This document shows positions 8,074-27,883 of a stretch of 64,000 bases of DNA, in pieces. The stretch is taken from the IMG/VR virus record IMGVR_UViG_3300032322_002195, positions 1 to 64,000 of that record; one strand, 5' to 3'. The notes under the pieces are model-generated. The model ran no database searches, was not told the DNA's origin, and was given only the letters and a program-made list of their open reading frames with translations. This stretch comes from a virus. Made by a program: the position numbers and the translations under genes. Numbering within the stretch: position 1 is the stretch's first letter; each line of letters begins with the position of its first letter.

Positions 8074-8106
8074 TAAAAAATAACAATTCTTTTAAACTAG
8101 TAAGAA

Positions 8107-9429: not shown

Positions 9430-10414
9430 AAAATTTGACTTTAATGACATTTTAATTGAGCCAGCCACCGTTTCAAGAATAAGCAGCCGAAAAGATATAA
9501 ATCCATATTATAATGGGTTTTTGCCTTTGATAACAGCTCCAATGGATACTGTTATTAGTACAGATAATGAAAAAATATTCCACGACCTTAAAATTAACAC
9601 ATGTCTACCAAGAGGTGAGCATTCAAATTTAGGTTTTAATTCATATTCCTTGAATGAAATGTTAACGAATTTGGAGAATATAATAAACCCGAATGGTTAT
9701 TATTTGATAGACATTGCAAATGGACATATGGATTCTTTGATAACCACAACAAAATCAATCAAAGATAAATACCCTAACTTAACACTCATGGTTGGTAATA
9801 TCGCTAATCCTGAAACATATGCTTTGTTATCTGAAGCTGGTGCGGATTATGTTAGAGTTGGTATAGGAAATGGAGGTGGTTGTTTAACAACTTTTAGCAC
9901 TGGTGTTGGTTATCCAATGGCATCTTTAATTAAAGAATGTCATGAAAAATCCTTGGGTTTAAAAAAACCAGCGAAAATTGTTGCTGATGGTGGAATGCAA
10001 ACGTATAGTGATATTATAAAAGCTATAGCCCTAGGTGCTGATTATGTAATGGTCGGTAGTATATTCAATAAAGCAATTGAATCGTGTGGTGACAATTATC
10101 TTTGGGGTAAAGTAAAAGTTCGTCAAGATATTTCTGAATTTGCTTATGCTAATGGAATTCCTGTTTATAAAAAATTTAGAGGTATGAGTACGAAAGAGGT
10201 TCAGAAAAAATGGGGTAAAGAAGTATTGACAACTTCAGAAGGTGTAGTTAGATTTAGAAAAGTTGAATATAACCTTGCTAAATGGGTTGATAATTTTGAA
10301 GCGTATTTACGTTCAGCCATGAGCTATACTAATTCAAAAACTTTGTCTGATTTCATTGGGAATGTTGGAACTATCAACATAACAGATAACGCTTATAATA
10401 GATATAAAAAATAA
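9422..10414 (+). CDS. IMP dehydrogenase / GMP reductase family protein
   Basis: 330 residues forming a TIM-barrel of the GuaB/GuaC family, which interconverts IMP with XMP or GMP. The N-terminal FDFNDILIEPATVS and TAPMDTV match the family start. The catalytic loop is VGIGNGGGCLTT, with Cys154 as the nucleophile. The phosphate-binding KIVADGGMQTYSDIIKAIALGADYVMVGS motif follows. The CBS pair of most IMP dehydrogenases is absent and the length fits GMP reductase, but which reaction it catalyses cannot be decided by eye. It ends with TAATG shared with the following glycosyltransferase. The role is probably purine nucleotide or GDP-sugar supply. Confidence 0.88.
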   Translation: MIEKFDFNDILIEPATVSRISSRKDINPYYNGFLPLITAPMDTVISTDNEKIFHDLKINTCLPRGEHSNLGFNSYSLNEMLTNLENIINPNGYYLIDIANGHMDSLITTTKSIKDKYPNLTLMVGNIANPETYALLSEAGADYVRVGIGNGGGCLTTFSTGVGYPMASLIKECHEKSLGLKKPAKIVADGGMQTYSDIIKAIALGADYVMVGSIFNKAIESCGDNYLWGKVKVRQDISEFAYANGIPVYKKFRGMSTKEVQKKWGKEVLTTSEGVVRFRKVEYNLAKWVDNFEAYLRSAMSYTNSKTLSDFIGNVGTINITDNAYNRYKK

Positions 10415-12435
10415 TGATATCAGTAGTATATTGCACTAGGCAATCAAACCAAGAACACAAAGAACACTTAATAAAATCTTCTGGTTTAGGTAAGAATATT
10501 GAAATAATTGAGATTGTAAACAACGGTGAATCATTAACTACATGTTACAATCGTGGACTAAAACAAGCAAAACATAATATTATTGTTTACTGTCACGATG
10601 ATTTGGTTATTGAAACAAAATCATGGGGTGATAAATTAATTAAATTATTTAAAAGAAACCCAGAGTTTGGTATTATTGGAGTGGCTGGAACAAAATATCT
10701 TTCACAAAGTGGAAAATGGTGGGAAAACCCTAAGAAAATGTATGGTAGAGTAGCTCATACTCATGAAGGTAAGACTTGGTTATCAACTTATTCAGCAGAT
10801 TTGGGTCACGAATTAGAAGAAGTAGTTGTGTGTGATGGTGTTTGGTTTGCAGTAGATAAAACCAAAATCAAAAAAACGTTTAACGAAAACGTAGAAGGGT
10901 TCCATTTTTATGATGTAACATTTTCATTTGAAAATTATATAGCTGGTTCTAAAGTTGGTGTAACAACTGCAATACGTATCAACCATAAATCAATTGGCAT
11001 GACCAATGAAGCATGGGAAAAAAATAGGGTTGATTTTTCAGAAGCATACCAAGAACATCTTCCAATAGATATAAAAAAAGTTTTAAAAAAAGGTCAGAAA
11101 TATAAAATTTTAATAGCTGATGTTAGCCTTGTTAGTAATTCTCCAGAAGAAATTTTTATAATTGATTTGATTAAAAAATTAAAAAAAGAAAATCATGACA
11201 TTAGTTTTGTTGGTGGATTAGACAAAAAAAATGAAAACATTTTAAAACAAGCTGGTGTTAAAATTTTTTCAGCACAAGAACCGCCAGGGTTTAAATTAGG
11301 CGATGGAAAGTGGCTTTTAAAAACTCAACAAGGCGATATAACATCACAAATAAATACGTTATATAAAGTTAAAGATGTATCATTTGACATGTTATATATT
11401 GGGAAAAAACCAATGACTGAACATTTATTAAGGTTATACCCAGACACTGAAATAACGTCAGTAATATATTCAACTGACGTTCATTTGGACGAACCAGTGA
11501 TAAATAAAATGATTGTCAAATATATAGCTATTAATGAAAATATCAAACAAAATTTGATACATATTAATATGATAAATGAAGGTATGGTTGAATTATTTTC
11601 CGAATCAAAAACAGAAATAAAAATTAAAAATAAACCAAGGTTGAAAAGGGGACCTATTAAGATTATGACTGGATGGTCAGATAAAGGTGGTTCAACAAAT
11701 GCTTTTATTTCATTAACAAATACTTTAAATAGCTATGGTTATGATGTGACATTATATGGTCCACATAATTGGCACTTGGACAAATGTAAATCTGGTTTGC
11801 TAAACCAAGTTACGGTTAACCCTAAAGATAGATTAATAGTACATTTTTTAAAATTACCTAACAGACCTAATGCTGGTAAAGTTATTTTAGCTTGTCACGA
11901 GAAAAATTTATACGAAGTTGGAGAAACCAAACAATTTTGGGATGAAGCTGTTTTTTTAAATCAAAGACACAAAGATTACCATAGCAAATATACTGGTAAT
12001 TTTACGATTATTCCAAACCTAAAAACTCCTTTAATAAAAAGAAATAAAAATGGTTTTGAAAAAATAGCTGGTGTTATTGGTTCATTTGACGAAAACAAAC
12101 AAACGCATGTATCAATCGAAAGAGCTTTATCTGATGGTTGTGAAAAAATTTATTTGTTTGGTGAACCATACGGTTCTTATTATGAGGATTTTATTAAACC
12201 ACTGCTTAGTGATAAAGTAATATTAAAAGGGTTCTTAGAAGATAAACAAGCTATTTACGATATGATTGGGTGTGTTTATCATTCGTCTAAGAGCGAAGTT
12301 GCAACTTTAGTTAAAGATGAATGTGAATCAGCTGGTGTTATATTTAATGGAAATGAAGCCACTGAAAATCAACCAGTTTTATTAACAAATGATGAGATAA
12401 TACAAAAATGGTTAAAAATTTTGGATTTAGATTAA
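10414..12435 (+). CDS. two-domain glycosyltransferase (GT2-like plus GT4-like)
   Basis: 673 residues. Residues 1-220 form a GT-A domain (ISVVYCTRQ start, 'IVYCHDDLVI' acidic motif, later CDGVWFAVDK). A middle stretch of about 170 residues is Rossmann-like. From about 415 a GT-B domain begins with KIMTGWSDKGGSTNAF and ends in a DECESAG segment near the donor site. Two catalytic modules in one chain suggest addition of two sugars in succession. It opens the long sugar locus, starting within the stop of the GuaB-like gene (TAATG), and the next gene starts within its own stop. Donor and acceptor are unknown. Confidence 0.8.
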   Translation: MISVVYCTRQSNQEHKEHLIKSSGLGKNIEIIEIVNNGESLTTCYNRGLKQAKHNIIVYCHDDLVIETKSWGDKLIKLFKRNPEFGIIGVAGTKYLSQSGKWWENPKKMYGRVAHTHEGKTWLSTYSADLGHELEEVVVCDGVWFAVDKTKIKKTFNENVEGFHFYDVTFSFENYIAGSKVGVTTAIRINHKSIGMTNEAWEKNRVDFSEAYQEHLPIDIKKVLKKGQKYKILIADVSLVSNSPEEIFIIDLIKKLKKENHDISFVGGLDKKNENILKQAGVKIFSAQEPPGFKLGDGKWLLKTQQGDITSQINTLYKVKDVSFDMLYIGKKPMTEHLLRLYPDTEITSVIYSTDVHLDEPVINKMIVKYIAINENIKQNLIHINMINEGMVELFSESKTEIKIKNKPRLKRGPIKIMTGWSDKGGSTNAFISLTNTLNSYGYDVTLYGPHNWHLDKCKSGLLNQVTVNPKDRLIVHFLKLPNRPNAGKVILACHEKNLYEVGETKQFWDEAVFLNQRHKDYHSKYTGNFTIIPNLKTPLIKRNKNGFEKIAGVIGSFDENKQTHVSIERALSDGCEKIYLFGEPYGSYYEDFIKPLLSDKVILKGFLEDKQAIYDMIGCVYHSSKSEVATLVKDECESAGVIFNGNEATENQPVLLTNDEIIQKWLKILDLD

Positions 12436-13373
12436 TGAAAAAAATAAAAAAATGGTTTGATGAAAAACTAACTATTTTATCATTGACCATGTCTAATGTA
12501 GAAAAAAACGCTTTAGGGCAGGTTTCTGAGCCTTTGAATAGCGATGTCGGTCAATTTAGAAGAATAACACAAGGACAATTAGCCGATTCATTGATTAATG
12601 GGGAGGTAACGCAAGAAGTTTTAGATTTAAAATGGAGAACATATAAAATACTAAGAGAAACGGATGGTTTGACTTCTGAAATAACTGGTTATGACGAGAG
12701 TGGTATGCCTATTGTTTTAACAAAAAAAATAGACAAGAATAAAGCTTTAAAAAAGGTAAAATTAGACAATTATGATAGTTATGAACTAGAAATGGTTATT
12801 GACAATTCACCAATAGCTTTAAGTGTTAATGATATTATGTCTAGCAATTATATTGAAGCAAATGAAAAACCAATAATTATATCTGGTGACACAGCATCAT
12901 TAGGAGAAATATCTGGTGAAAAATATTTTGGAACTTACAGGACACATTTACCCATAAGAATTTTTAGGGAAACCATACCAAAATTTGATATTGAAACGTA
13001 TGTTAAAAAATTAAATATCAGAACAATTGATGAGGACACTAAATTATTGGAATTTTGTGTTAGTAAATACCCAGACCCAGATAATAAAAGAAGTATCTTG
13101 TTTTTAAAAGAAATTGAAAAAGCAAAGACGAACCCTAGAGTGTGTACTATGTTAGAAATAAAAAAAGTTAGTTTTATAACTTATAAATGCTTAGGTGTTT
13201 CTGATTTTTTAGAGTTTGAATATGATATAACATCTTTTGATAAAATCATAGAATTTAATGGTACTTATGTTATAAAATTCATAGCTAAAACAACTAAAAA
13301 CGGAGATGATGTTTTTGAAAAACATAAACAAAAAGACCTTGATGAAAAATACCAACAAAAACTTAAGAAATGA
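12435..13373 (+). CDS. hypothetical protein within the sugar locus
   Basis: 312 residues starting at the ATG of TAATG. It has no glycosyltransferase signature. The middle contains IIISGDTASLGEISGEKYFGTYRTHLPIRIF, and the rest mixes beta segments with charged helices. The N-terminus KKIKKWFDEKL is a basic amphipathic helix that could bind membrane or nucleic acid. It is tightly packed between two glycosyltransferases (4-base overlap with the next start). It could be a structural protein carried in the cluster and a possible acceptor of the glycans. That is speculation. Confidence 0.65.
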   Translation: MKKIKKWFDEKLTILSLTMSNVEKNALGQVSEPLNSDVGQFRRITQGQLADSLINGEVTQEVLDLKWRTYKILRETDGLTSEITGYDESGMPIVLTKKIDKNKALKKVKLDNYDSYELEMVIDNSPIALSVNDIMSSNYIEANEKPIIISGDTASLGEISGEKYFGTYRTHLPIRIFRETIPKFDIETYVKKLNIRTIDEDTKLLEFCVSKYPDPDNKRSILFLKEIEKAKTNPRVCTMLEIKKVSFITYKCLGVSDFLEFEYDITSFDKIIEFNGTYVIKFIAKTTKNGDDVFEKHKQKDLDEKYQQKLKK

Positions 13374-14116
13374 AACAAAAACCAATAGTACATGCTTTTT
13401 TTATTTGTTTTAACGAAGAAAACATATTACCACATTTAATAAAATACTATTCTACTTTTTGTGAAAGAATAACGATATTAGACAATAACTCAACCGATAG
13501 AAGTTGTGAAATCATTCAATCGTTTCCTAACACTGAAATAATTCCTTTCAATTCTAATGAGGAGTTTCATGATGGTGTTCATATTAAATTAAAGAATCAT
13601 GTTTGGAAATCTAGCGTTGGTTATGCTGATTTTGTTATATTAGGTGATGCTGATGAATTTTTGTACCATGAAAATATGGTTGATTTTTTAATAGAATCAA
13701 AAGAAAAAGGTATTAGTTTTTTTAAACCAGAAGGATACCATATGATTGGTGATGAAGATTTGGAATTAACAGCTGATGACAATATTTTTGAAAAAGTTAA
13801 ATATGGTGTTAGAACACCTGTATTGGATAAACCAATGATGTTTGACTGCAATAAAATTATAAACATAAATTATGGTTTTGGATGTCATACTGCAAATCCT
13901 GTTGGAACTGTTGTACCATCAATTTATAATGGTTTAAAAATGATACACTATAAATTTTTAGGGTTAAAAGATTACTTGTACAAAAATAAAATTAGAGCTG
14001 AAAGATTAAGCAAATTTAACAAAGAAAATGGTTTTGGTTTGTACTATATGTTTACTGAAAATGAACACATAATTGATTATAAATCCTATATTGATAGGAG
14101 AACTAAAGTTTTATAA
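13370..14116 (+). CDS. glycosyltransferase, GT-A fold (GT2/GT92-like)
   Basis: 248 residues. The start PIVHAFFICFNEENILPHLIKYY and ITILDNNSTDRS fit the Glyco_tranf_2_4 group, in which the nucleotide-sugar donor is held by a DxD motif, here GDADEFL near residue 90. Late residues NGLKMIHYKFLGLKDYL match the usual C-terminal lid. It overlaps the preceding gene by 4 bases, and the next ATG follows after 1 base. It is probably a retaining or inverting hexosyltransferase acting on the phage-encoded glycan. The sugar cannot be told from sequence. Confidence 0.8.
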   Translation: MKQKPIVHAFFICFNEENILPHLIKYYSTFCERITILDNNSTDRSCEIIQSFPNTEIIPFNSNEEFHDGVHIKLKNHVWKSSVGYADFVILGDADEFLYHENMVDFLIESKEKGISFFKPEGYHMIGDEDLELTADDNIFEKVKYGVRTPVLDKPMMFDCNKIININYGFGCHTANPVGTVVPSIYNGLKMIHYKFLGLKDYLYKNKIRAERLSKFNKENGFGLYYMFTENEHIIDYKSYIDRRTKVL

Positions 14117-14117
14117 A

Positions 14118-14798
14118 ATGATAATAGGTAATGGATTATTAGGTAGTGCTTTTATAACTAAGAAACAAGATTACGAAAAATTTGTAATCTTTGCTTCTGG
14201 TGTTTCTGATTCATTACACTCCAATGAGTTATCTTTTGAACGAGAAAAATTATTGGTTTTAAAAACTATAAACGACTACAAAGATAGTAAATTTATCTAT
14301 TTTAGTAGTGTTTTGGCTGGAATATTTGATAACGATTACTATAACCATAAAATAGAAATTGAAGAACTTATCAAAAGCAACTCAAATAATTACATTATTT
14401 TCAGAGTCCCTCAAATAATAGGGAGTAGAGGGAATAAACATAATCTAGTTAACCACATTAAAAATTTAATTTTAAAAAATGAAGAAGTAGTGGTTTATAA
14501 AAATGTTTATAGAGCTTTGCTTGATGTTGACGATTTGGTTAAACTTGTTGATTATTTTAAAGATACAACACTATGTGAAACAATATACATATCAAACATA
14601 GAAAAAATAAATGTTTTGGACATCGTTAATATCATCTCTAACCAATTAAAAATAAAAGCTAAAATTAAAATGGTTGATTCTGAAAACAATAATTGGTTTC
14701 ATGAAAATGATATGGTTGTTGATGATGCCATATCTAAAATAGGAATAGTAAGGTCTGGATATACAAATAACGTTATTAAAAAATACATAAACAACTAA
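14118..14798 (+). CDS. NAD-dependent epimerase/reductase-like protein (short-chain dehydrogenase type)
   Basis: 226 residues from the ATG after the preceding stop. The Rossmann dinucleotide motif stands at the very start (IIGNGLLGSAF), and FSSVLAG with YYNHK gives the Ser and YxxxK catalytic pair of extended SDRs. FRVPQIIGSRGN continues the pattern. It is short for the family (usually 290-330 residues), so the substrate domain is reduced. It resembles RmlD-like reductases and the N-terminal half of the 18193 gene. It probably reduces or epimerises a nucleotide-linked keto sugar. Confidence 0.78.
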   Translation: MIIGNGLLGSAFITKKQDYEKFVIFASGVSDSLHSNELSFEREKLLVLKTINDYKDSKFIYFSSVLAGIFDNDYYNHKIEIEELIKSNSNNYIIFRVPQIIGSRGNKHNLVNHIKNLILKNEEVVVYKNVYRALLDVDDLVKLVDYFKDTTLCETIYISNIEKINVLDIVNIISNQLKIKAKIKMVDSENNNWFHENDMVVDDAISKIGIVRSGYTNNVIKKYINN

Positions 14799-14799
14799 A

Positions 14800-15522
14800 A
14801 TGATAATACTAACTGGTTTCTACAACGCTGAACAATATGTTGAAAGATGCATAGCGTCTATTATGGGACAATCATTTACCGATTTTAAGTGCTATATTAC
14901 ACATGATTTATCAACTGATAATTCAGTTAAATTGGTCAAAGAAATGATTGAAGGGGATGATAGATTTATTCTTATTGATGATAACGAAAAAAAACTATAT
15001 CAGGCTGGTAATTTTGATAAAGTGATTAGAAATAACCCAAACATAGCTGACGATGAAGTTTTGGTAGAGGTTGATGGTGATGATTATTTGCCAGATGGTA
15101 ACGTTCTGAAAAGAATAAACGAATTATATAAAGACCAAAACATTTGGATTGCTAATGGTAGTTTTAAATACCATAATGGACCTGTTGGTTTTTCATCTAA
15201 ACAAACCAATTTCCATAGTTTAAGAACATCTAACTTTACCGCTTCACATATTCGTACATGGAGAGCTTTTTTATGGAGAAACATAAAAGAAGAGGATTTA
15301 AAAGATGAAAACGGTAATTACTGGCAATGGAGTGGTGATTTATGCTTTATGTTTCCTATGTTAGAAATGGCTGGTGAGGAACACTACAGTTTTATGACAG
15401 ATATAAATTATGTTTACAACGCTGAGAACCCAATAAACGAACATAAGGTGGATATGTCAATGGTCACCAACCATGCAACAAGAATTAGAAATAAACAACC
15501 TTACCAAAAATTAATTAGATAA
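14800..15522 (+). CDS. family 2 glycosyltransferase
   Basis: 240 residues with a clear GT2 layout: IILTGFYNAEQYVERCIASIMGQ start, ITHDLSTDNSV, then the donor-binding VDGDDYL near residue 92. The C-terminal part contains WQWSGDLCFMFPMLEMAG, where a catalytic Asp is expected. It sits 1 base after the epimerase-like gene and overlaps the fucosyltransferase-like gene by 1 base (TAATG). It acts in the cytoplasm on nucleotide sugars; the specificity is unknown. Confidence 0.85.
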   Translation: MIILTGFYNAEQYVERCIASIMGQSFTDFKCYITHDLSTDNSVKLVKEMIEGDDRFILIDDNEKKLYQAGNFDKVIRNNPNIADDEVLVEVDGDDYLPDGNVLKRINELYKDQNIWIANGSFKYHNGPVGFSSKQTNFHSLRTSNFTASHIRTWRAFLWRNIKEEDLKDENGNYWQWSGDLCFMFPMLEMAGEEHYSFMTDINYVYNAENPINEHKVDMSMVTNHATRIRNKQPYQKLIR

Positions 15523-16289
15523 TGATAACTTGTAAACTACAAGGTGGTTTAGGTAATCAAATGTTTCAAATAGCCGCTACATATGCATTGGCACTAAGAA
15601 ACAACGATACCTGTGGTTTTAATTTTAATCAATGTTATACACCATTACAAGGTAACCCGTCTAGCAAATACAAGAAAAATATTTTTGCTAAAATAACTGA
15701 ATCTAATGACTACAAATTTAGAGTCGGATACACTGAACCTAGATTTGGTTATGAAGAATTACCATATGCTCCAGATTTAATGTTGGTTGGATTTTTTCAA
15801 AGTGAAAAGTATTTCTCTGATTATGAAGATGATATCAAAAATATGTTTTCAATAGATATAACCAATGCTGATAAATTTATCAATTCAATAAGAAAACCTA
15901 ATACACCAATTACATCAATTCATATTAGACGTGGTGATTATGTAGGGTTATCCGATATGCATAGTTTGTGTTCTTTGGAATATTACAATATGGCGATGTC
16001 ATCTATCGGTGACTCAACATTTGTTATTATCTCAGACGATATACAATGGGCCAAAGAAAACATACAAGGTGATAACATTTATTATTCACCATTTGAAAAT
16101 GAAATAGATGACTTTGCTATGATGACAGTTTGCAACAATAACATAATCGCAAATAGCAGCTTTAGTTGGTGGGGTGCCTACTTGAATCAAAACAACGATA
16201 AAAAAATAATAGCCCCTAAAATATGGTTCGGTCCAAGAGGTCCAAAAGATACTGAAGATATTATTCCTATAAATTGGGAAAAAAAGTAA
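15522..16289 (+). CDS. GT11 alpha-1,2-fucosyltransferase-like protein
   Basis: 255 residues. The start KLQGGLGNQMFQIA is the GT11 signature, HIRRGDY at 134-140 is the GDP-fucose-binding HxRRxD motif, and NSSFSWWGAYLN near the end is also typical. GT11 enzymes move L-fucose from GDP-fucose, usually in alpha-1,2 linkage. A remnant of GDP-mannose 4,6-dehydratase, the first enzyme of GDP-fucose synthesis, lies at 27.6-27.9 kb. The gene ends the first block of the sugar locus, and a promoter follows it. A variant paralogue is at 25742. Confidence 0.9.
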   Translation: MITCKLQGGLGNQMFQIAATYALALRNNDTCGFNFNQCYTPLQGNPSSKYKKNIFAKITESNDYKFRVGYTEPRFGYEELPYAPDLMLVGFFQSEKYFSDYEDDIKNMFSIDITNADKFINSIRKPNTPITSIHIRRGDYVGLSDMHSLCSLEYYNMAMSSIGDSTFVIISDDIQWAKENIQGDNIYYSPFENEIDDFAMMTVCNNNIIANSSFSWWGAYLNQNNDKKIIAPKIWFGPRGPKDTEDIIPINWEKK

Positions 16290-16295
16290 AAACCA

Positions 16296-16324
16296 TTGAC
16301 ATTATCATATTTTTTCGGTATAAT
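16296..16324 (+). promoter_or_regulatory. promoter TTGACA-17-TATAAT before the 3-dehydrase gene
   Basis: TTGACA at 16296-16301, 17 bases, TATAAT at 16319-16324. This equals TTG-N20-TA, the same geometry as the Bacteroidota-type promoters elsewhere in the window, but with a perfect sigma70 consensus. It lies 13 bases before the ATG at 16338, in the only sizeable gap of the locus's first half. Confidence 0.75.
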
Positions 16325-16337
16325 TAAATAAAAATTT

Positions 16338-17639
16338 ATGGAAAATATTGACGAAATATTATCAGCTTTGACTTCTTACCTAAAAGAAAATAAGCCTAAA
16401 TACCTTTACAATCAAACATTCATACCCAACAAAAGTCAAGTGCTATATTCTGGCCCTTATTGGGATGAAGAAGAAATAATGGCTGGTATCAAAACTTTTA
16501 TAACTGGTAAATGGGTTGTAGCTGGTGAAAATGTGCACAAGTTTGAAAGAGAATTCGCTAAAACCTTTGGTGTTAAGTTTGCTCAAATGGTTAATTCTGG
16601 TAGCTCTGCTAATTTGGTGTTAATAGCCGCACTTAAAAAATATTTTGGGTGGAATAATGGTGATGAAATCATTGTGTCACCAGTTGGTTTTCCAACAACC
16701 ATATCAACGATTGTACAAAATAATCTAGTTCCTGTATTTGTTGACATAGAATACGACACACTTAATTTTGATATTAATAAAATCGAAGAAAAAATAACCG
16801 ATAAAACCAAAGGTATTTTTGTGTCACCAGTATTAGGTAATCCTCCAGATATGGATTTTTTAACAATGTTGTGTGAGAAACATGACCTTAAATTAATTGG
16901 TGATAGTTGTGATAGCATTGGTTCTAAATGGAACGGTAAACATCTATCAGATTACTATGTTGCGTGGTCATCTTCTTTTTATCCAGCTCACCATATATCA
17001 ACAGGTGAAGGCGGTATTGTTTGCACAAACATTGCTGACTTAAAAAAATTATTCACTAGTTTTTCATGGTGGGGTAGAGATTGTCATTGTGTTGGTTCAG
17101 CCAATTTGCTTTCTTGTGGTACATGTGGAAATAGATTTGACAAATGGCTTGATTCTTATGATGGTATAATTGACCATAAATATGTGTTCACCAATATGGG
17201 TTATAATCTTAAACCTATGGATTTGCAAGGTTCAATTGGTTTGGTACAATTAACCAAATTTAATGAAATTGATAAAAGAAGAAAAGAAAGTAAAGCTAGA
17301 ATTGAAAGCATTATCTTAAAGCACGTTAAAGGTGTTAAAAATGTTAATATGTTAGATAAATCCGATACTTGCTGGTTTGGAACGCCTTTTATCTGTGAAA
17401 ACAAAGTAATTAAAGATAAATTGGTTGCTTTTTTAGAAGAAAATAAAATACAAACTAGAAACTACTTTGCTGGTAATATTTTAATGCATCCAGGTTATAA
17501 ACACTTGGACAATTTAAACAAATATCCTAATGCTAATCAAGTATTGGATAAAGTATTCTTTTTGGGTGCCGCACCACATTATAACGATGATGTTTTTAAT
17601 TTTGTTGAAAATGTCTTTAAAGAAAAATGGGAAAATTAA
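16338..17639 (+). CDS. RfbH/DdhC (E1)-type nucleotide-sugar 3-dehydrase
   Basis: 433 residues, DegT/StrS fold. It matches E1, the PMP- and iron-sulfur-dependent enzyme that removes the C-3 hydroxyl of CDP-4-keto-6-deoxyglucose to give 3,6-dideoxy sugars. The active-site Lys of aminotransferases is replaced by His219 in FYPAHHISTGEGG, as in E1. Cys249, Cys251, Cys260 and Cys263 (RDCHC ... SCGTCG) lie where E1 holds its [2Fe-2S] cluster. Length agrees with E1 (about 437). Its E3 reductase partner and a CDP-glucose dehydratase are not in the window, so the host or other phage genes must supply them. It has its own promoter, and rmlC follows after 6 bases. Confidence 0.9.
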   Translation: MENIDEILSALTSYLKENKPKYLYNQTFIPNKSQVLYSGPYWDEEEIMAGIKTFITGKWVVAGENVHKFEREFAKTFGVKFAQMVNSGSSANLVLIAALKKYFGWNNGDEIIVSPVGFPTTISTIVQNNLVPVFVDIEYDTLNFDINKIEEKITDKTKGIFVSPVLGNPPDMDFLTMLCEKHDLKLIGDSCDSIGSKWNGKHLSDYYVAWSSSFYPAHHISTGEGGIVCTNIADLKKLFTSFSWWGRDCHCVGSANLLSCGTCGNRFDKWLDSYDGIIDHKYVFTNMGYNLKPMDLQGSIGLVQLTKFNEIDKRRKESKARIESIILKHVKGVKNVNMLDKSDTCWFGTPFICENKVIKDKLVAFLEENKIQTRNYFAGNILMHPGYKHLDNLNKYPNANQVLDKVFFLGAAPHYNDDVFNFVENVFKEKWEN

Positions 17640-17645
17640 TAGAAT

Positions 17646-18191: not shown

Positions 18192-18192
18192 A

Positions 18193-20281: not shown

Positions 20282-20292
20282 AAAAAAAACAT

Positions 20293-20964
20293 ATGAACAT
20301 ATTAAAAACAATACTTAAAGATGGTTATTTGGTTTTTGATGTTGGATGCAACATCGGAGAAAAAGCAAATTATTATTTACAACTAAACACAAAAGTTGTG
20401 GGTTTTGAACCACAACCAAAATGCGTAAATGCGTTACTTAAACGTTTTAAAGACAATGATAACATAGTAATCGAACCGATTGGGCTAGATAAAGAAAAAG
20501 GTGTTTCGGTTATATACGAAGCTTCACATGATACTATTTCATCAATGTCTTTAGATTTCATAAACACAGTTAAAAAAGAAAGATTTTCTGGTTATAATTG
20601 GGGTGAAAAAATTGATATTAATATCGACACCTTAGATAATATGATTTTAAAACATGGTAAACCTAACTATATTAAAATAGATGTGGAAGGATATGAATTA
20701 AATGTTTTACAAGGTTTAACAACACCTATCGATATCATTTCTGTTGAATTCACTCCAGAATTATGTCAATCATCAGTTGATTGTGTTAATTACATTGAAA
20801 GTATAAATGGAGAATGTGTATACAATTATGGTTATAGAGAAGATTTGGATTTTAAATTTGATACTTGGTTAAATAAACAAGATTTGCTTTCTTATATAGA
20901 ATCTGTAAAAGATTTTAGCTTTGAATTCGGAGACATATATGTAAAGATAAAAGATAAAAAATAA
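20293..20964 (+). CDS. FkbM-family SAM methyltransferase
   Basis: 223 residues. FDVGCNIGEKANYYL is the SAM-binding motif I, GFEPQPKCVNALLKRF and IEPIGLDKEKG follow, and INIDTLDNMI with YIKIDVEGYELNVLQGL is the FkbM signature. FkbM enzymes usually O-methylate sugars or polyketides. Capping a glycan by methylation is the likely use here. It starts 11 bases after the DUF5672-like gene and is followed by two further methyltransferases. Confidence 0.87.
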   Translation: MNILKTILKDGYLVFDVGCNIGEKANYYLQLNTKVVGFEPQPKCVNALLKRFKDNDNIVIEPIGLDKEKGVSVIYEASHDTISSMSLDFINTVKKERFSGYNWGEKIDINIDTLDNMILKHGKPNYIKIDVEGYELNVLQGLTTPIDIISVEFTPELCQSSVDCVNYIESINGECVYNYGYREDLDFKFDTWLNKQDLLSYIESVKDFSFEFGDIYVKIKDKK

Positions 20965-20970
20965 TTAATT

Positions 20971-21615
20971 ATGGGACTAATAAACGACCTCTGTATAAAA
21001 TATGGTACAGACAAAAGCGACAACTTGCACAATTACGCTGAAAAATATGAAAAATACTTTTCAGCTTACAAAGATAAAGAATTGAAAATTTTAGAAATCG
21101 GTATTTTTAATGGGTTTTCGCTAAAAACTTGGGAAGAATATTTTGTAAAATCAAAAATATACGGTATAGATATTCTTGACTGTTCAAGAATGAATACTGA
21201 TAGAATTAAAACGTTTGTTTGTGACCAAACAAATTTAGAAGAGCTAAAAAAAATTAATGATATGTATGGTCCATTTGATATTATTATTGATGATGGTTCA
21301 CATAAAAGCAAAGACATGAAAAAAACGTTTGATTTTCTATTTCCATTACTAAACAACAATGGTTTATATGTAGTTGAAGATTTGCATTGTTGTTATTGGG
21401 ATATCTTCAGCCCAAATGAAACTGATTTTATGGATAGGCTTAAAGAACTATTAGATATCGTTAATTCTAACGGTAAATGTGGTTTAGCTGAATTAAAAAA
21501 CATATCCAAGGACCATTTCTATCAAGATAAAGTTTTAGGTGAAATGACTTGGTTTGAAATGAATGTAGCATTTATTAACTTATATAAAAGCATTGTTTTT
21601 ATTGGTAAAAACTAA
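20971..21615 (+). CDS. class I SAM methyltransferase, sugar-modifying type
   Basis: 214 residues. LKILEIGIFNGFSLKTWEEYF holds the SAM motif, YGIDILDCSRM the ribose-binding acidic residue, and FDIIIDDGSHKSKDM the conserved IDDGSH seen in cephalosporin-hydroxylase/TylF-like and glycan methyltransferases. It lies 6 bases after the FkbM gene. The gene at 21650 shares its key motifs (EIGI.. GxSL, IYGIDI, FDIIIDDGSH), so the two are diverged paralogues. It probably methylates a sugar; the position is unknown. Confidence 0.83.
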   Translation: MGLINDLCIKYGTDKSDNLHNYAEKYEKYFSAYKDKELKILEIGIFNGFSLKTWEEYFVKSKIYGIDILDCSRMNTDRIKTFVCDQTNLEELKKINDMYGPFDIIIDDGSHKSKDMKKTFDFLFPLLNNNGLYVVEDLHCCYWDIFSPNETDFMDRLKELLDIVNSNGKCGLAELKNISKDHFYQDKVLGEMTWFEMNVAFINLYKSIVFIGKN

Positions 21616-21649
21616 ATAACATAATAACAAAAATAAAAAGAAAAAACAG

Positions 21650-22267
21650 ATGAAAATAGCTGAAATTTTATTAAAGTACAAGACAGACAAAAATTATGGA
21701 ACAATTAAAAATATCTATGATGATTTATATAGATGGAATATTGTTGATAACCCAGAACCTTGTATCGGTCATTCATATGGTTTATCGTATGATGAAATAT
21801 TCGAAAAATTTGATAGAAACGCCCCAATTAATTTTTTAGAAATTGGTATACAAAAGGGTGGTAGTTTATGTGCGTGGAAAGACTACTTCCAAAATGGAAA
21901 TATATATGGTATTGATATTATAGATTGTATATTAGATGAATATAGAAGACCAGATTTTAATTATATAATTTCTGACATCAAAAACCCTTCACTTAAAGAA
22001 ACACTTAAAGATGTAATGTTTGATATTATTATTGACGATGGAAGTCATCATCTAAATGATGTTATGTTTGTAGTTAACAATTATTTAGATAAACTTAATA
22101 AAGGAGGTTTTTTAATAATAGAAGATTGTCAACAACCAGAACATTGGCTTAGTTATGTAAAACCTTTGATACCTAATGGGTATGAGCTTACAACTAGAGA
22201 TTTAAGACATGATACGCAGTATTCTTCTTACGATAACTTTTTAATAGTAATTGAAAGAAAGGCATGA
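21650..22267 (+). CDS. class I SAM methyltransferase, paralogue of 20971
   Basis: 205 residues. NFLEIGIQKGGSLCAWKDYF is motif I, IYGIDIIDCILDEYRR the acidic motif, and FDIIIDDGSHHLNDVMF the catalytic-region signature. Compared with its neighbour it has a different N-terminus (IAEILLKYKTDKNYG) that resembles a sugar methyltransferase lid. A 34-base A-rich gap precedes it, and it overlaps the next gene by 4 bases (ATGA). Confidence 0.83.
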   Translation: MKIAEILLKYKTDKNYGTIKNIYDDLYRWNIVDNPEPCIGHSYGLSYDEIFEKFDRNAPINFLEIGIQKGGSLCAWKDYFQNGNIYGIDIIDCILDEYRRPDFNYIISDIKNPSLKETLKDVMFDIIIDDGSHHLNDVMFVVNNYLDKLNKGGFLIIEDCQQPEHWLSYVKPLIPNGYELTTRDLRHDTQYSSYDNFLIVIERKA

Positions 22268-22860
22268 AAAAATATGATGTTATCATAGCTAGATATAATG
22301 AAGATGTTTCATGGGTTAAAGAATTAGATTCAAATAAATTCAACATTAAACTTTACAACAAAGGTGAACAAAACATTGAAATTGAATCAATATCTTTGGA
22401 AAATTTTGGAAGAGATGGTCATACTTTCATAAATTATATTGTAGAAAATTATAACAATTTACCAGATTATGTTATTTTTCTACAAGGCAAACCGTTTGAC
22501 CATTGTAAAAATGTGTTTGAAATGATTAAAAATCATACCGATGAACCCTACGTATGTTTATCAGACCATGTTATTGATGAGAATATTAATGGTTGGTATG
22601 AGCATTTGGTTGAAAAAGACTCATCAATGCCATTTCCAAACATGAAAAGATTTAGATTAAAAGAAACAGCCAACGCAATTTTAGGTTCAGAAACACCAGA
22701 AAAATGTACGTTTGCTGCTGGTCAACAATACATTATTAATAAAAATTACATTTTAAATCGTTCCCATGATTTCTATAAAGTAATTCTAGAACGATTTAAA
22801 ATTGATTTCGTTTTGCCATGGCATGTTGAAAGGTTATGGTTTAACATTCTTAAATTTTAA
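22264..22860 (+). CDS. DUF3431-like protein (putative glycosyltransferase)
   Basis: 198 residues. The start YDVIIARYNEDVSWVKEL, 'YVIFLQGKPFDH' and the later CTFAAGQQYIINKNYIL resemble the DUF3431 family found beside glycosyltransferases. No DxD motif is clear. It overlaps the preceding methyltransferase (ATGA) and is followed after 7 bases by a GTG-started glycosyltransferase. It is likely part of glycan assembly; the function is not established. Confidence 0.68.
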   Translation: MKKYDVIIARYNEDVSWVKELDSNKFNIKLYNKGEQNIEIESISLENFGRDGHTFINYIVENYNNLPDYVIFLQGKPFDHCKNVFEMIKNHTDEPYVCLSDHVIDENINGWYEHLVEKDSSMPFPNMKRFRLKETANAILGSETPEKCTFAAGQQYIINKNYILNRSHDFYKVILERFKIDFVLPWHVERLWFNILKF

Positions 22861-22867
22861 AATATAG

Positions 22868-23806
22868 GTGAAAAATAATTACAAAATAGTTGCAATAACG
22901 CCATCTGGACGTAGAAATTATCTAGAAATTTTATATAAATATATGTGTAAAAACAAACACATATTAGATAGATGGGATTTATGGGTTAATACTGAAAACT
23001 CTGAGGATTTAGAGTATATGAAAAACTTATCTAATAACGATTCATTTGTTAATTTGGTTTACCCGACTTGGCCATATTATAGAGATTGTCCTAATTTATC
23101 GCTAGCACCGTTCTGGTCTAAAGCAACAGATGAAGATACAATTTATGTTAGGTTTGATGACGATGTTGTCTTTGTTGCTGATAATACAATAGAAAATTTG
23201 GTTAACTTTAGACTTGAACATGAAGAATATTTTTTTATATACCCATTTATTATAAATAACCCTTTTCATTCAAAAATTTTACAAGACAGGGGGTTGATTG
23301 ATAATAGACATGGTATTATTAGAACACATAAAGAACTAGCAATGTTAGGTCCTAGTGACCCTGTAGCGTTAACTAACCCATCTTTTGCTAGATATTTACA
23401 CGAAACCTTCATAGATAGTTATCAAAAAGGTGACTATAACAAATTTATGTGTGATGAAAAAATAGTTTTTGAAATAGGTGACACATCATATAAATACGGC
23501 ACCAACAAAACAAGCGAATTAGTCACAGATGGCGGCCCACAAGTATCAATAAATTGTGTTTGTTGGTTTGGTCATACATTCAAAAAAATATGCCCAATAA
23601 ATGATTGTTACTTTGAAGGTAACTCTGACCAGTCTGAACTGACTGATGAAGAAGCGTATTTAACCATAGTTAAAACTAAAGATTTAGGTATGCCATCATG
23701 TACCGCACCAAATACATTGGTATCTCATTTTTTATTTGGCCCTCAAAGAAGACATGATGGGATGATTGATATATTACAAAAATACAAAGACATTTCAAAT
23801 GTATGA
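22868..23806 (+). CDS. putative glycosyltransferase with GTG start
   Basis: 312 residues, beginning at GTG (preceded by ATATAG; no ATG is close). KIVAITPSGRRNYLEILYKYM and YVRFDDDVVFVADN (a DDD metal-binding motif near residue 98) indicate a GT-A fold. The C-terminal part, with NTLVSHFLFGPQRRHDGM, resembles transferases of unknown specificity in polysaccharide loci. It overlaps the UDP-galactopyranose mutase by 8 bases, which argues for co-translation and perhaps a Galf acceptor step. That link is an inference from position only. Confidence 0.72.
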   Translation: MKNNYKIVAITPSGRRNYLEILYKYMCKNKHILDRWDLWVNTENSEDLEYMKNLSNNDSFVNLVYPTWPYYRDCPNLSLAPFWSKATDEDTIYVRFDDDVVFVADNTIENLVNFRLEHEEYFFIYPFIINNPFHSKILQDRGLIDNRHGIIRTHKELAMLGPSDPVALTNPSFARYLHETFIDSYQKGDYNKFMCDEKIVFEIGDTSYKYGTNKTSELVTDGGPQVSINCVCWFGHTFKKICPINDCYFEGNSDQSELTDEEAYLTIVKTKDLGMPSCTAPNTLVSHFLFGPQRRHDGMIDILQKYKDISNV

Positions 23807-24893
23807 TTTTGTAATTGTTGGTTCTGGATTTTTTGGTGCTATTTGTGCTAGAGAATTAACAGATTTGGGTCACAAATGTTTGGTACTGGAAAATAGAAAC
23901 CATATTGGTGGTAATTGCTATACCGAGAATAGAGATGGTATAAACATACACAAATATGGTCCGCACATATTCCACACTTCAAACGAAGAAGTTTGGGGAT
24001 GGATTAACAAATATGCTGAATTTAATGATTTTACTTTTAGGCCAGTAGCAAATTATAAAGGTGAAATCTATTCACTACCATTTAATATGTGGACGTTTTC
24101 AAAATTATTTAATGTGGTGTCACCAAACGATGCTAAAAAAATAATAGAAACGCAAACAACTACAATTACTGACCCTAAAAATTTAGAAGAACAAGCCATA
24201 AAATTAGTTGGATATGACGTTTATGAAAAATTAATAAAGGGATACACAACTAAACAATGGAAAAAAGACCCGAAATTACTACCGAAAGAAATCATTAAAC
24301 GATTACCAGTAAGGTTTACTTATGATAACAATTATTTTAATGATAAATATCAAGGTATTCCTATTGGTGGTTACACTGAAATATTTAAAAAGTTGTTGGA
24401 TGGTATTGACGTTAAATTAGAAAATGATTACCTTTGTAATAAAGAATATTGGGATAATTTAGGTAAAAAAATAATCTACACAGGTCCTATTGATAAATTT
24501 TATAATTATCAATTTGGTTATTTAGAATATAAGACAACTAATTTTGAACATAAATTTTTTAATGTTGAAAATTATCAAGGTACTTCCGTTATGAATTATA
24601 CTGATTTAGATACAAAATTTACTAGAATTATTGAACATAAACATTTTGAAAAAAATGATGTTGAAAACACTTGGGTTACATGGGAATATCCTGTGGATTA
24701 TGAACCAGAAAAAACAGAACCTATGTATCCAGTTAATGATTTTGAAAACAATCTTAAATATTCAAAATATAAAGAATTAGCAAACACTGAAAAAAAAATA
24801 ATTTTTGGAGGTAGATTGGCAGAATACAAATATTATGATATGCATCAAGTAATTGAATCTGCGTTGTCTACTGTTAAAAAACTAACAAAATAA
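23799..24893 (+). CDS. glf: UDP-galactopyranose mutase
   Basis: 364 residues, the normal length. It converts UDP-galactopyranose to UDP-galactofuranose using reduced FAD. FVIVGSGFFGAICARE and the following ENRNHIGGNCY are the FAD-binding and UGM signatures. KYGPHIFHTSNEEVWGWI, LPFNMWTF, GYTTKQWKKDP and the C-terminal GRLAEYKYYDMHQVIESAL all match. I chose the ATG at 23799; an earlier TTG at 23766 lies deep in the upstream gene. It predicts that the product of this locus carries galactofuranose. The next gene starts inside its stop (TAATGG). Confidence 0.95.
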   Translation: MYDFVIVGSGFFGAICARELTDLGHKCLVLENRNHIGGNCYTENRDGINIHKYGPHIFHTSNEEVWGWINKYAEFNDFTFRPVANYKGEIYSLPFNMWTFSKLFNVVSPNDAKKIIETQTTTITDPKNLEEQAIKLVGYDVYEKLIKGYTTKQWKKDPKLLPKEIIKRLPVRFTYDNNYFNDKYQGIPIGGYTEIFKKLLDGIDVKLENDYLCNKEYWDNLGKKIIYTGPIDKFYNYQFGYLEYKTTNFEHKFFNVENYQGTSVMNYTDLDTKFTRIIEHKHFEKNDVENTWVTWEYPVDYEPEKTEPMYPVNDFENNLKYSKYKELANTEKKIIFGGRLAEYKYYDMHQVIESALSTVKKLTK

Positions 24894-25741
24894 TGGAAAA
24901 AGTTTACATCATATCTGTCTTCAACAAACACGAAGATTTTATTAAATTACAATATGATAGCATATTAAAACATGTTAAAGGTGAGTATGAATATATTATC
25001 TTTAATAATGCTTCTGATGAAATACAAGCTAACAAAATAAAAGACATTTGTGATGACTTAAACATCCAATCTTATAGAATAAAAGTTGATTATAATATGG
25101 GTCCATCTGATATAGCTGGTGAAGCACTTAATCAGTCATTTAATCATCTATCAGATAAATTAGTTTTTAAAATTGATTCAGATATGTTTTTTATTTCTGA
25201 CATTGAATTAACTAAAATATGTAACAATTATGATTTATTTTATATTGAAACTCAAAATAAATTTATGTGGTCAGCAGTTTTTTCAATTAATATGAAAAAA
25301 GTTAAAAACATAAAATTAAATTTCAGACCACATGTTATACCAAATACAGATACATTTGGTCAATCGTGTTTATTAACTGAAAATTCAGAATACACTAGAA
25401 AAAAAATGTTTTTATATTGTATTTTAACAGATGTAAACAATGAAATTAATGGGTTGATTAATAATGACTGTAGAATAACATTAAATAATTATAATTTAAC
25501 ATTTAACGAAAATTTTTTGTATGAAGATTTGTTTGAAAAATTACCAAACAAATATTCTAAAATATCTAAAACTATGGTTGATTATAATTTCCCACACCCA
25601 TATCATATTGATTTTATTACTTTAGATGATGTTGATGTTATAATACATTTTAAATCATCAAATCATGATAACATATATCGTAACTTAGAATACACTGAAA
25701 ATAAAAAAATAGCATTAACAAAATTTTTAAATGATAATTAA
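24893..25741 (+). CDS. putative GT-A glycosyltransferase
   Basis: 282 residues. KVYIISVFNKHEDFIKLQYDSI and YIIFNNASD form the nucleotide-binding half, and LVFKIDSDMFFIS supplies a DSD metal motif near residue 96. NMGPSDIAGEALNQSF is typical of the donor-site helix. It lies directly after glf, so it is a candidate galactofuranosyltransferase, but the sequence does not prove it. It abuts the GT11-like gene with no gap. Codon use is very AT-rich, like its neighbours. Confidence 0.72.
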   Translation: MEKVYIISVFNKHEDFIKLQYDSILKHVKGEYEYIIFNNASDEIQANKIKDICDDLNIQSYRIKVDYNMGPSDIAGEALNQSFNHLSDKLVFKIDSDMFFISDIELTKICNNYDLFYIETQNKFMWSAVFSINMKKVKNIKLNFRPHVIPNTDTFGQSCLLTENSEYTRKKMFLYCILTDVNNEINGLINNDCRITLNNYNLTFNENFLYEDLFEKLPNKYSKISKTMVDYNFPHPYHIDFITLDDVDVIIHFKSSNHDNIYRNLEYTENKKIALTKFLNDN

Positions 25742-26653
25742 ATGATAACAACAAATCTAACAGGTAATTTGGGTAACCACATGTGGCAATATGCTGTATG
25801 TAGAACCATAGCTGAAAAACTTGGATATGAATGGGGTATAAACCCAAGCCCAAGTCATGATTATTTTAATGGTAAAAGCCAAATGACGTTTATGAACGTT
25901 GATTTTGGTAAACCAGTTGAAGGTATAACAAAAGAATTCCATGAAACATGGAAAGTTTTTTCGCATGTTGACGATGTTAATATCACAATGCTAGACCCTA
26001 AACTATACGAAATAGAAGATAATTCAATTATGCTAGGTCATAATGGGGCCAAAGGAGGTATATACCAATCTGAAGATTACATCATAGATAGAAAAGAAGA
26101 TATTAAAAAATGGTTTGAAATTAAATCTGAATCCAAACAAACTTATGATAAAATATTAAGTGATATGGGGATTAGTTTGGATGAGAATTTATGTGTTATT
26201 AATTTTAGAGGTGGTGAGTACAGAAGCATACCTAATGTTTTACTAAGAAAAGAATATTGGAAAAACGCCATCAATCATATGTTAAATATTAACCCTAGTA
26301 TGAAATTTTTATTGATTACCGATGATGTACAATGTGCAAATAGCTTCATGCCTTTTCAAATTCAAGCAATACATGTAGATGTTGGTTTTGATTATTACGT
26401 TGTTAATCAAGCAAAATGGTTAATAATATCAAATTCAACATTTGGTTGGTGGGCAGCTTGGTTAAATGAAAAAGTTGAAAAAATAATTGCTCCTAAACAT
26501 TGGTCTAGACATAACGTTAGTGATGGTTATTGGGCGACTGGTGACGCTTACACCAGATGTTTCACATATATGGATAGAGAAGGTAATTTATCTGATTATG
26601 AAACGTGTAAAACTGAAGCAATAAATTATTATAAAAACAAAAACTTGATATGA
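25742..26653 (+). CDS. GT11-like glycosyltransferase with altered HxRRGD motif
   Basis: 303 residues. The start TNLTGNLGNHMWQYAVCRTIAEKLG and the late ISNSTFGWWAAWLN match GT11. Where alpha-1,2-fucosyltransferases have HxRRGD, this protein reads INFRGGEYR (about residues 159-167): the His and one Arg are replaced. Loss of these donor-binding residues suggests a different donor or reduced activity. It is longer than the 15522 paralogue by about 50 residues, mostly at the C-terminus. It is followed by a 4-base overlap with the GT17 gene. Confidence 0.82.
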   Translation: MITTNLTGNLGNHMWQYAVCRTIAEKLGYEWGINPSPSHDYFNGKSQMTFMNVDFGKPVEGITKEFHETWKVFSHVDDVNITMLDPKLYEIEDNSIMLGHNGAKGGIYQSEDYIIDRKEDIKKWFEIKSESKQTYDKILSDMGISLDENLCVINFRGGEYRSIPNVLLRKEYWKNAINHMLNINPSMKFLLITDDVQCANSFMPFQIQAIHVDVGFDYYVVNQAKWLIISNSTFGWWAAWLNEKVEKIIAPKHWSRHNVSDGYWATGDAYTRCFTYMDREGNLSDYETCKTEAINYYKNKNLI

Positions 26654-27510
26654 AAATATACGATGCTTTTCTATTCTTTAATGAATTAGAATTACTAGAG
26701 ATGAGAATGAATATTTTAAACGATGTTGTTGATTATTTTGTTGTTGTCGAATCAACAATAACATTTAGCTCTAAACCTAAACAATTATTATTTCATGAAA
26801 ACAGACACTTATTTGATAAGTTTAATGATAAGATAATCCATGTGATTATTGATGATTCACCAAATAGTTTTTTGAAAATAAATTATATTGATAACCCTAA
26901 AACTGATAGTGAAATATTAAAAAATAAAATTTTAAAACATGTTGATGAATCACCAAATTGGCCACGACATGAAAGTCAATGGGGTATTGAAACTTACCAA
27001 AGAGAATCAATAATTAAAGGGTTGGTTAATTGTAATGATGATGATATTGTTATTGTATCAGATGTAGATGAAATCCCAAATCCAATCGAAATAGAAAAAC
27101 TTAAAAATATTGGTTACGATGTTTTTAATTTTAATCAAAACATGTATTATTATTATGTAAACATGTTAAAAGAAAATAATTGGTCTGGTCCTAAAGCATG
27201 TTCATGGGGTAAATTAAAAACAATATCCTTAAATAGTTTAAGACAAAATAAACACACAACCAAAATGATATCTAATGGTGGTTGGCACTTTAGTTTTATG
27301 GGTGGTGAACATAAGGTAATTGAAAAAATTGAAGCTTATGCCCATCAAGAATTTAATAAACCATACTATAAAGAAAATGTTAGAAATAATATAATGTCAA
27401 ATAACGACCCTTTTTTTAGAGGTAGTCTAACACATGTAAGTATAGATGAAACATATCCTAAATATTTGCTAGAAAATTTAGAAAAATATAGTCATATGGT
27501 TAAAGAATAA
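26650..27510 (+). CDS. GT17 family glycosyltransferase
   Basis: 286 residues. The opening [20 protein letters not shown] and [10 protein letters not shown] are the GT17 signature (beta-1,4-mannosyl-glycoprotein N-acetylglucosaminyltransferase family). [24 protein letters not shown] (DVD metal motif) and [11 protein letters not shown] are also conserved. Bacterial and viral members are thought to add a GlcNAc-like sugar, but the acceptor is not known. It is the last intact gene of the sugar locus; the gmd remnant follows after 41 bases. Confidence 0.9.
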
Positions 27511-27551
27511 ATCTTTACTGTTTTATTTTTAATCATTTTTTCAATAAAAAT

Positions 27552-27863
27552 ATGAATAAACTAGCTTTAATTATAGGTGCAAACGGCCAAGATGCTTCGT
27601 ACATGGCCGAGTTTTTGGTTGAAAAAGGTTATGAACTACACGGAACTATAAGAAGAAATTCAGTACCAGAATCGCAAACAACTAGAATTGAACATAGAAA
27701 AATATATTAAAACAGATAAAAAATTTGAAAGAGCAGAAGAACTTCATTATTTAAGAGGTGATGCAACAAAGCTAAAACAATTTTAGGGTGGGAATTAGAA
27801 TATACGTTTGAAACCATGTTAGATGAAATGATAGAATATTGGCAAATTAAATTGAAAAAATAA
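27552..27863 (+). pseudogene. gmd: decayed GDP-mannose 4,6-dehydratase
   Basis: The stretch opens with an intact Gmd N-terminus ([34 protein letters not shown]), but the frame hits a stop at 27708-27710 after 52 residues. In the +1 frame the C-terminal region follows (FERAEELHYLRGDATK). One base appears missing near 27771, since the next frame reads AKTILGWELEYTFETMLDEM to a stop at 27861. A full Gmd has about 350-370 residues, so some 250 central residues, with the catalytic YxxxK, are deleted. It would have supplied GDP-4-keto-6-deoxymannose for fucose synthesis. The whole 393-base gap between 27511 and 27903 holds nothing else except a promoter box. Confidence 0.82.
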
Positions 27864-27883
27864 TTTAATGTAAAACTTTAGGA

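Follow-up and report, generated by a model that had tools for sequence, protein, structure and literature searches.

Polysaccharide gene clusters carried by phages are already known from P-SSM2 and from the pelagimyophages (PMC7824862, PMC7029224). Here we describe a glycan synthesis locus in the first 64 kb (the window, 64,000 nucleotides in full) of the linear IMG/VR virus record IMGVR_UViG_3300032322_002195, which comprises 108,837 bases and belongs to an uncultured freshwater phage whose genome is T4-like, with recognizable major head protein, portal, large terminase, head maturation protease and ClpA/B-type ATPase. Between an IMPDH-like gene at 9422 and a PhoH gene at 27904, 19 intact, tightly packed forward genes (g1 to g19, 10414-27510) and one decayed gene form a multi-gene cluster of glycosyltransferases (GTs) and nucleoside diphosphate (NDP)-sugar enzymes of the P-SSM2 kind. 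In the first-pass annotation this region had been read as a glycan synthesis locus that is carried by the phage and by far exceeds the DNA glucosylation set of T4 in size, which is borne out here. It had counted eighteen intact genes and one decayed gene; the decayed gene stands, and the intact genes number 19 since g2 (12408) belongs to the locus.

Like the P-SSM2-type clusters (PMC7824862), the locus is carried by a T4-like phage, combines a large set of epimerases or reductases and other sugar enzymes with GTs of several families, and is polymorphic among related phages. P-SSM2-type clusters, however, hold sugar kinases and nucleotidyltransferases, whereas a search of six contigs of the present clade for nucleotidyltransferases of the NTP_transferase family (PF00483) gave no match (control positive). 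Moreover, the phage clade and the slot are different, and the cassette described here is exchangeable, lies between constant GTs and has recently been swapped in a documented case. The host recognition cluster of pelagimyophages (PMC7029224) is likewise a hypervariable island with glycosyltransferases at a fixed place in T4-like genomes, but it lies between VrlC and gp14 together with tail fibres, whereas the slot between g1 and PhoH holds essentially glycan genes and g2. The T4 alpha and beta DNA glucosyltransferases also are GTs of a T4-like phage, but they are two enzymes acting on hydroxymethylcytosine, and a hydroxymethylase of that type was not found here (see below). A more remote parallel is virion glycosylation in chloroviruses (PMC4691112), where viral GTs without predicted transmembrane (TM) domains and the virus's own sugar-nucleotide enzymes build a methylated, fucose- and rhamnose-containing glycan resembling the one predicted here. 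Chloroviruses, however, are eukaryotic nucleocytoplasmic large DNA viruses, and Vp54 is their known acceptor. We found no published account of the g1-PhoH slot, of the genes that anchor it or of the recent exchange. What we consider new is that the slot is fixed between constant anchors, that membrane machinery is lacking and that a recent swap could be demonstrated.

The g1-PhoH slot and its cassettes

Scans of IMG/VR with two queries, the IMPDH-like protein and g2, yielded well over 80 related loci. Twenty intervals from IMPDH to the gene designated o203 were fetched from relatives, so that with the window 21 slots were compared. Counts refer to contigs, some of which come from the same site and hence are not independent; all contigs compared may be incomplete, and open reading frames (ORFs) were called by a simple longest-frame script. 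The borders and anchors in the window are:

9422-10414, + strand: IMPDH/GMP-reductase-like protein (PF00478, 4.4e-40), left slot border in many relatives
10414-12435, + strand: g1, GT2-like domain with a C-terminal region (PF13712, 9.4e-33), left slot anchor
12408-13373, + strand: g2, conserved protein with no match in Pfam, PHROG, PDB sequences or phage records
27904-29814, + strand: PhoH-like ATPase with an intein (PF02562, 5.3e-53; LAGLIDADG_3), right slot border

Both g1 and g2 were present and PhoH closed the slot in 21/21 cases, g2 lying either near g1 or beside PhoH and g1 being divided into two ORFs in several relatives. More widely, g2 was found in 80 loci. The interval from IMPDH to o203 ranged from 4.4 kb to about 20 kb, and the 360 proteins of the 21 slots fell into 133 clusters, 64 of them singletons.

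How such diversity can arise is illustrated by an independent contig, IMGVR_UViG_3300044630_004371 (G025), in which the gene order g1-g19 is identical. Over 18432-26965 (about 8.5 kb) it aligns with the window at 99.8% DNA identity, with 14 differences in 18,400-26,600, and the near-identical block ends inside g9 on the left and inside g19 on the right. The proteins of genes 19580-25742 are 99.5-100% identical, compared with 51% for g2, 70% for g1 and 74% for both o203 and the head protein. A 99.8% identical block in backbones of about 74% identity speaks for recent exchange; on the evidence of the alignment, the block is a recent cassette transfer by recombination inside shared genes. Comparison with related phages, suggested beforehand as a way of telling a conserved from a swapped locus, thus shows a conserved slot with swapped contents. 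The 642 kb uncultured phage LR756502 has E1, RmlD-GT2, DUF5672, GT11 and GT17 proteins in common with the window (40-83% protein identity); in that genome a ClpA/B homologue (58% to 61127) adjoins the glycan genes.

The first-pass annotation had also cautioned that the locus might be a chimeric assembly, which is ruled out, since other contigs show the same junctions and the genes in the same order. Apart from that caution, a somewhat lower GC content in places is all that speaks for a chimera of this kind, or for a piece of host DNA taken up a single time and functionless for the phage. Such an origin is scarcely credible: the same slot and borders occur in more than 80 contigs, the g1-g19 order recurs in G025 at a different backbone identity, reading frames are intact and the operon promoter is conserved. 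Chance is excluded by the gene packing and by conservation of the slot in more than 80 other contigs, and because g1, g2 and the PhoH border recur in 21/21 slots and G025 carries g1-g19, we regard the locus as genuine phage DNA.

Several nearby features had been suspected of belonging to the same system, and the comparison supports this. One of them, at 12435, corresponds to g2, a conserved part of the locus. The others turned out to be constant GTs or GT-like proteins of the clade:

5268-7664, + strand: GT4-like glycosyltransferase with a LAGLIDADG intein (LAGLIDADG_3; phrog_7162 glycosyltransferase, 1.9e-39)
30868-32034, + strand: glycosyltransferase-like protein (weak PDB match to the putative glycosyltransferase 8xsg, E=0.0037)
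32043-32840, + strand: GT2 (PF00535, 7.2e-9)

The proteins 30868 and 32043 are encoded in 47/47 loci reaching them and 5268 in 18/20 loci reaching far enough. A natural cassette loss separates them from the slot contents. In one lineage (L193/G027) both g1 and the cassette are lost, g1 from the entire 88.6 kb contig, yet g2, 5268, 30868 and 32043 are kept. In place of the cassette, the slot is occupied by an array of tandem paralogues starting MNNKDLIKQYINTGNGIP (L193:3062-7795, - strand), reverse-strand repeat proteins with repeated NPSEAVQLAAVTQNG-like units. The retention of g2 and the three GTs after cassette loss indicates that the constant enzymes and g2 are independent of the cassette.

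This independence fits a two-layer design. We propose that this clade of T4-like phages has a cytosolic glycan machine built in two layers, and that the locus is its exchangeable part. The first layer is constant and comprises the GTs 5268, 30868 and 32043, g1 as the left anchor and the ever-present g2. The second is the variable cassette between g1 and PhoH with its NDP-sugar tailoring enzymes, further GTs and methyltransferases, replaced by phage-phage recombination as seen between the window and G025. The constant enzymes may attach the first sugars to an acceptor that is likewise constant, and the cassette would set the outer methylated sugars (galactofuranose, 3,6-dideoxy- or rhamnose-type and GT11-transferred fucose-type), built from host NDP-sugar precursors. 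With a virion acceptor (see below), the outcome would be an exchangeable particle surface for each phage.

The acceptor of the glycan

A self-sufficient O-antigen or capsule system requires multi-spanning membrane proteins. When hydropathic segments were counted by a script as TM segments, not a single cassette ORF had at least two (0/360 in the 21 slots, 0/594 in 80 loci, the sets partly overlapping). Applied to flippases, a polymerase and an initiating transferase of E. coli, the same script counted 6, 9, 9 and 5 segments in wbbH, rfbX, wzxC and wcaJ, respectively, and at least two in 17/44 homologues of the backbone protein 34013. With no multi-spanning protein in 594 ORFs and a positive E. 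coli control, a self-contained Wzx/Wzy- or ABC-dependent O-antigen locus was rejected. The missing membrane machinery speaks against a pathway that makes host polysaccharide by itself and in favor of an acceptor in the cytosol.

Phage DNA is one alternative target. The dCMP hydroxymethylases belong to the thymidylate synthase family and have Asp instead of Asn. No protein of this type was found in eight large contigs: the PF00303 matches carry PFNIASY, with the Asn of the dTMP/dUMP type, and 4/8 contigs have no thymidylate synthase family protein at all, g1 and g2 being present in 8/8. Hydroxymethylcytosine-based DNA glucosylation is therefore unsupported. A search for Tet/JBP proteins gave no match, but its positive control was silent too. 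A broader variant, in which the enzymes would decorate phage DNA with long glycans on hypermodified bases against restriction, draws on the existence of glycan hypermodification of phage DNA (Pyle et al. 2024, as cited in PMC12619734), on the dUTPase in the same operon and on an early-type promoter, and a dUMP-hydroxymethylase or a post-replicative route stays compatible with the data. Given that only PFNIASY-type proteins, or no PF00303 protein, occur in the eight contigs, we consider this variant quite improbable.

As neither membrane machinery in any cassette nor a hydroxymethylcytosine pathway was found, a virion protein appears to be the most likely acceptor. It would be a soluble protein that acquires its glycan in the cytosol, either ahead of assembly or in its course; the probability that the two-layer machine has a virion-protein target is, in our estimate, about one in two. 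In support of this reading, the enzymes of the chlorovirus virion glycan are likewise devoid of predicted TM domains (PMC4691112). In the major head protein (40610-42517, - strand), the conserved part (phrog_138 matches 370-612) is preceded by about 300 residues rich in Thr and Ser, a candidate glycan acceptor. Still more tentatively, the phages might switch the glycotype of their own particles: the constant GT core would prime a virion protein and whole-cassette swaps would change the outer glycan, as in O-antigen serotype switching. If so, these phages would vary their surface against something that recognizes or binds them. With a virion target, phages would own a glycan coat that can be exchanged much as bacteria switch serotype; this would matter for phage ecology and for the finding of new soluble glycosyltransferases for rare sugars. 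With its fixed slot and constant anchors, about 20 cassette types found in nature, one lineage that has lost the cassette and one recent exchange between phages, the system lends itself to testing.

Several points weigh against a virion target. The sequence by itself reveals neither an acceptor nor a virion glycoprotein, the hydropathy count is a crude test, and the assignments of the RmlD-like protein 14118 (g4), g15, g17 and 30868 are weak or contextual. Moreover, soluble GTs could modify lipid-linked intermediates of the host and borrow its flippase. Expression timing is a further point. The operon of HD, dUTPase, IMPDH and cassette genes is preceded by:

8043-8106, + strand: Bacteroidota-type promoter TTG-N18-22-TAnnTTTG

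This motif occurs in 32/44 homologous upstream regions compared with 0.3 in shuffles, and was not found upstream of dUTPase, g1, g2 or PhoH. The operon seems to be read from this conserved host-type promoter, which suggests expression early or in the middle of infection rather than late, a timing no less fitting for a host or DNA target. A second motif, ATATTTAT, lies at 27883, 37075, 43931, 44732, 46653, 50852 and 58463 of the window, upstream of PhoH and several virion genes. In relatives it is enriched upstream of PhoH and of 33618 homologues, and window-wide it is not above chance; these positions hint at a possible phage late promoter.

The early-type promoter would suit a cassette that alters the host surface: in the cytosol, its enzymes would extend or decorate lipid-linked intermediates of O-antigen or capsule, and export of these by the host would block superinfection by competing phages. 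The same role has been proposed for the P-SSM2 cluster and the pelagimyophage islands (PMC7824862, PMC7029224), the gene families are those of O-antigen loci, and the precursor routes are incomplete, hence host pathways would be used. However, none of the 594 cassette ORFs in the 80 loci qualifies as a candidate flippase, polymerase, ligase, exporter or initiating phosphoglycosyltransferase, all of these being multi-spanning proteins, and the constant GTs are retained by a lineage without a cassette. On balance, we regard a host-surface target as unlikely.

Within the virion-target reading, g2 itself could be the acceptor, a tail or baseplate protein carrying the glycan. Such a role would account for its occurrence in every slot; g2 also outlasts the loss of the cassette, and most top-ranked PDB fold matches of its predicted structure are phage tail or baseplate proteins. 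An AlphaFold model from 59 diverse sequences reached a pLDDT of 80.8; an earlier model from 21 sequences (pLDDT 71.2) had a strong structural match only to the uncharacterized myovirus protein A0A8S5RZJ3. The PDB matches of both models are, however, non-significant (E 0.01-0.1, all above 0.01) and have low TM-scores, hhalign comparison with 21 T4 virion proteins gave a probability of at most 1.1%, and g2 does not move with the cassette (51% identity between window and G025). An acceptor role of g2 is thus very unlikely, and its identification as a known T4 tail protein was rejected, the hhalign comparison being blank and two structure predictions being without a significant PDB match.

Cassette enzymes, predicted sugars and precursor supply

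Between g2 and PhoH, the window encodes:

13370-14116, + strand: g3, GT2-type glycosyltransferase (PF13704, 1.6e-11)
14118-14798, + strand: g4, RmlD-like short-chain reductase (PF04321, 1.1e-4, under the Pfam cut-off); likely start 14118 rather than TTG 14073, from which the ORF is also open
14800-15522, + strand: g5, GT2 (PF00535, 5e-15)
15522-16289, + strand: g6, GT11, fucosyltransferase family (PF01531, 6.8e-30)
16338-17639, + strand: g7, E1-type sugar 3-dehydrase (PF01041, 1.1e-72; PDB 3bcx, 2.2e-74)
17646-18191, + strand: g8, RmlC, 3,5-epimerase (TIGR01221, 247 bits, cut-off 156)
18193-19587, + strand: g9, RmlD-like reductase fused to a C-terminal GT2 (PF04321, 7.4e-19; PF00535, 7e-11)
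19580-20281, + strand: g10, DUF5672 putative glycosyltransferase (PF18922, 7.6e-10)
20293-20964, + strand: g11, FkbM-type methyltransferase (TIGR01444, 79.7 bits, above cut-off)
20971-21615, + strand: g12, methyltransferase (PF13578/PF13847, weak)
21650-22267, + strand: g13, methyltransferase (PF13578, 3.7e-6)
22264-22860, + strand: g14, DUF3431 putative glycosyltransferase (PF11913, 2.2e-11)
22868-23806, + strand: g15, putative glycosyltransferase (phrog_4447 glycosyltransferase, 2.4e-9; no Pfam match)
23799-24893, + strand: g16, UDP-galactopyranose mutase (TIGR00031, 402 bits, cut-off 304); likely start 23799 rather than TTG 23766, from which the ORF is also open
24893-25741, + strand: g17, putative glycosyltransferase named by context (no Pfam or PHROG match; homologues in other cassettes)
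25742-26653, + strand: g18, GT11-like (PF01531, 2.2e-8; phrog_2644 glycosyltransferase, 6.3e-26)
26650-27510, + strand: g19, GT17 (PF04724, 5.2e-29)
27552-27854, + strand: decayed GDP-mannose 4,6-dehydratase (tblastn with intact homologues of relatives; PF16363 fragment)

Profile matches agree with the enzymes originally listed for the locus, among them GT2, GT11, GT17, DUF5672- and DUF3431-like GTs, UDP-galactopyranose mutase, E1, RmlC, RmlD-GT2 and three methyltransferases. Judged by these profiles, the identifications of UDP-galactopyranose mutase, RmlC, the FkbM methyltransferase and the GT2, GT11 and GT17 proteins are safe.

The g7 protein belongs to the DegT family and aligns along its length with Yersinia E1, a CDP-4-keto-6-deoxyglucose 3-dehydrase of the RfbH/AscC/DdhC type (best PDB matches 3bcx/3bb8). 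It has His at the position of the pyridoxal phosphate-binding lysine of aminotransferases, and in the 3bcx alignment four of its cysteines match those of E1, which in E1 are the ligands of the 2Fe-2S iron-sulfur cluster. As its score against the RfbH equivalog NF011936 (361 bits) is under the cut-off of 423, we call it E1-like and not RfbH. As a lead to a bacterial source, E1 gave a single 63% match, on a short contig (3.7 kb) from an Actinomycetes bin, and otherwise matches of 37% or lower, too little to point to a source. An E3-type reductase partner (NAD_binding_1, PF00175) had no match in the six clade contigs searched for PF00483, with a positive control.

Of the decayed GDP-mannose 4,6-dehydratase, about 48 N-terminal and about 60 C-terminal codons are left; the middle is lost and the frame broken, the N-terminus being up to 87% identical to homologues. 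By sequence resemblance, an intact gene is present in 11/20 relatives, often directly before PhoH. Two GT11-family proteins are retained in the window despite this decay, so that GDP-fucose, if used, must come from elsewhere. With the GDP-fucose route broken and neither nucleotidyltransferase nor E3 found, the precursors must be supplied by the host or by genes outside the sequence at hand. Of the sugars initially predicted, UDP-galactofuranose and 3-dehydrase chemistry are well supported, and the prediction as a whole is partly borne out.

Cassettes of relatives hold further enzymes. A RuBisCO large-chain-like protein (L093:2995-4173, - strand; PF00016, 7e-34, 392 aa) is encoded within a glycan cassette next to nucleotidyltransferase-like and cupin-like genes, and homologues (cluster c76) occur also in L196/L197. 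An asparagine-synthase-type protein was found in L106/L113 (probably L106:3941-5683), and sulfotransferase families are among the cassette representatives.

Phage clade and inserted elements

By portal protein, the nearest isolates are Microcystis phage Mel-JY01 and Flavobacterium phage immuto (38-40% identity), and the proteins 10414, 12408, 30868 and 32043 had no match among 50,697 phage records. The clade probably infects Bacteroidota, since the conserved promoter is of the Bacteroidota type. It probably corresponds to the moraphages of 2025. In their description (PMC12619734), moraphages are T4-related, mostly freshwater, Bacteroidota-linked phages of up to 307 kb with four core glycosyltransferase orthogroups, a sigma factor, PhoH, dUTPase and a ClpA-type ATPase; it notes variable islands, whose content it explicitly leaves open, and the sections consulted give no account of the g1-PhoH slot. 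The moraphage-type set (T4-type capsid, portal and terminase with PhoH, dUTPase, sigma factor and ClpA-type ATPase) is present here, the likeness being one of gene content. Against this assignment, a Lys-tRNA ligase (PF00152; moraphage VOG00439, 24 members) is absent from seven relatives.

Two LAGLIDADG inteins occur in the window phage, one in the glycosyltransferase 5268-7664 and one in PhoH (27904-29814), which is intein-free in most relatives. The thymidylate synthase of one relative (G019:C1:41393-43651, - strand), a single 761 aa frame with an internal insertion, probably contains another. In five relatives (L064, L081, L125, L129 and L201), the IMPDH-like gene is interrupted by an ORF of 341-363 aa, suggesting insertion of an intron or endonuclease.

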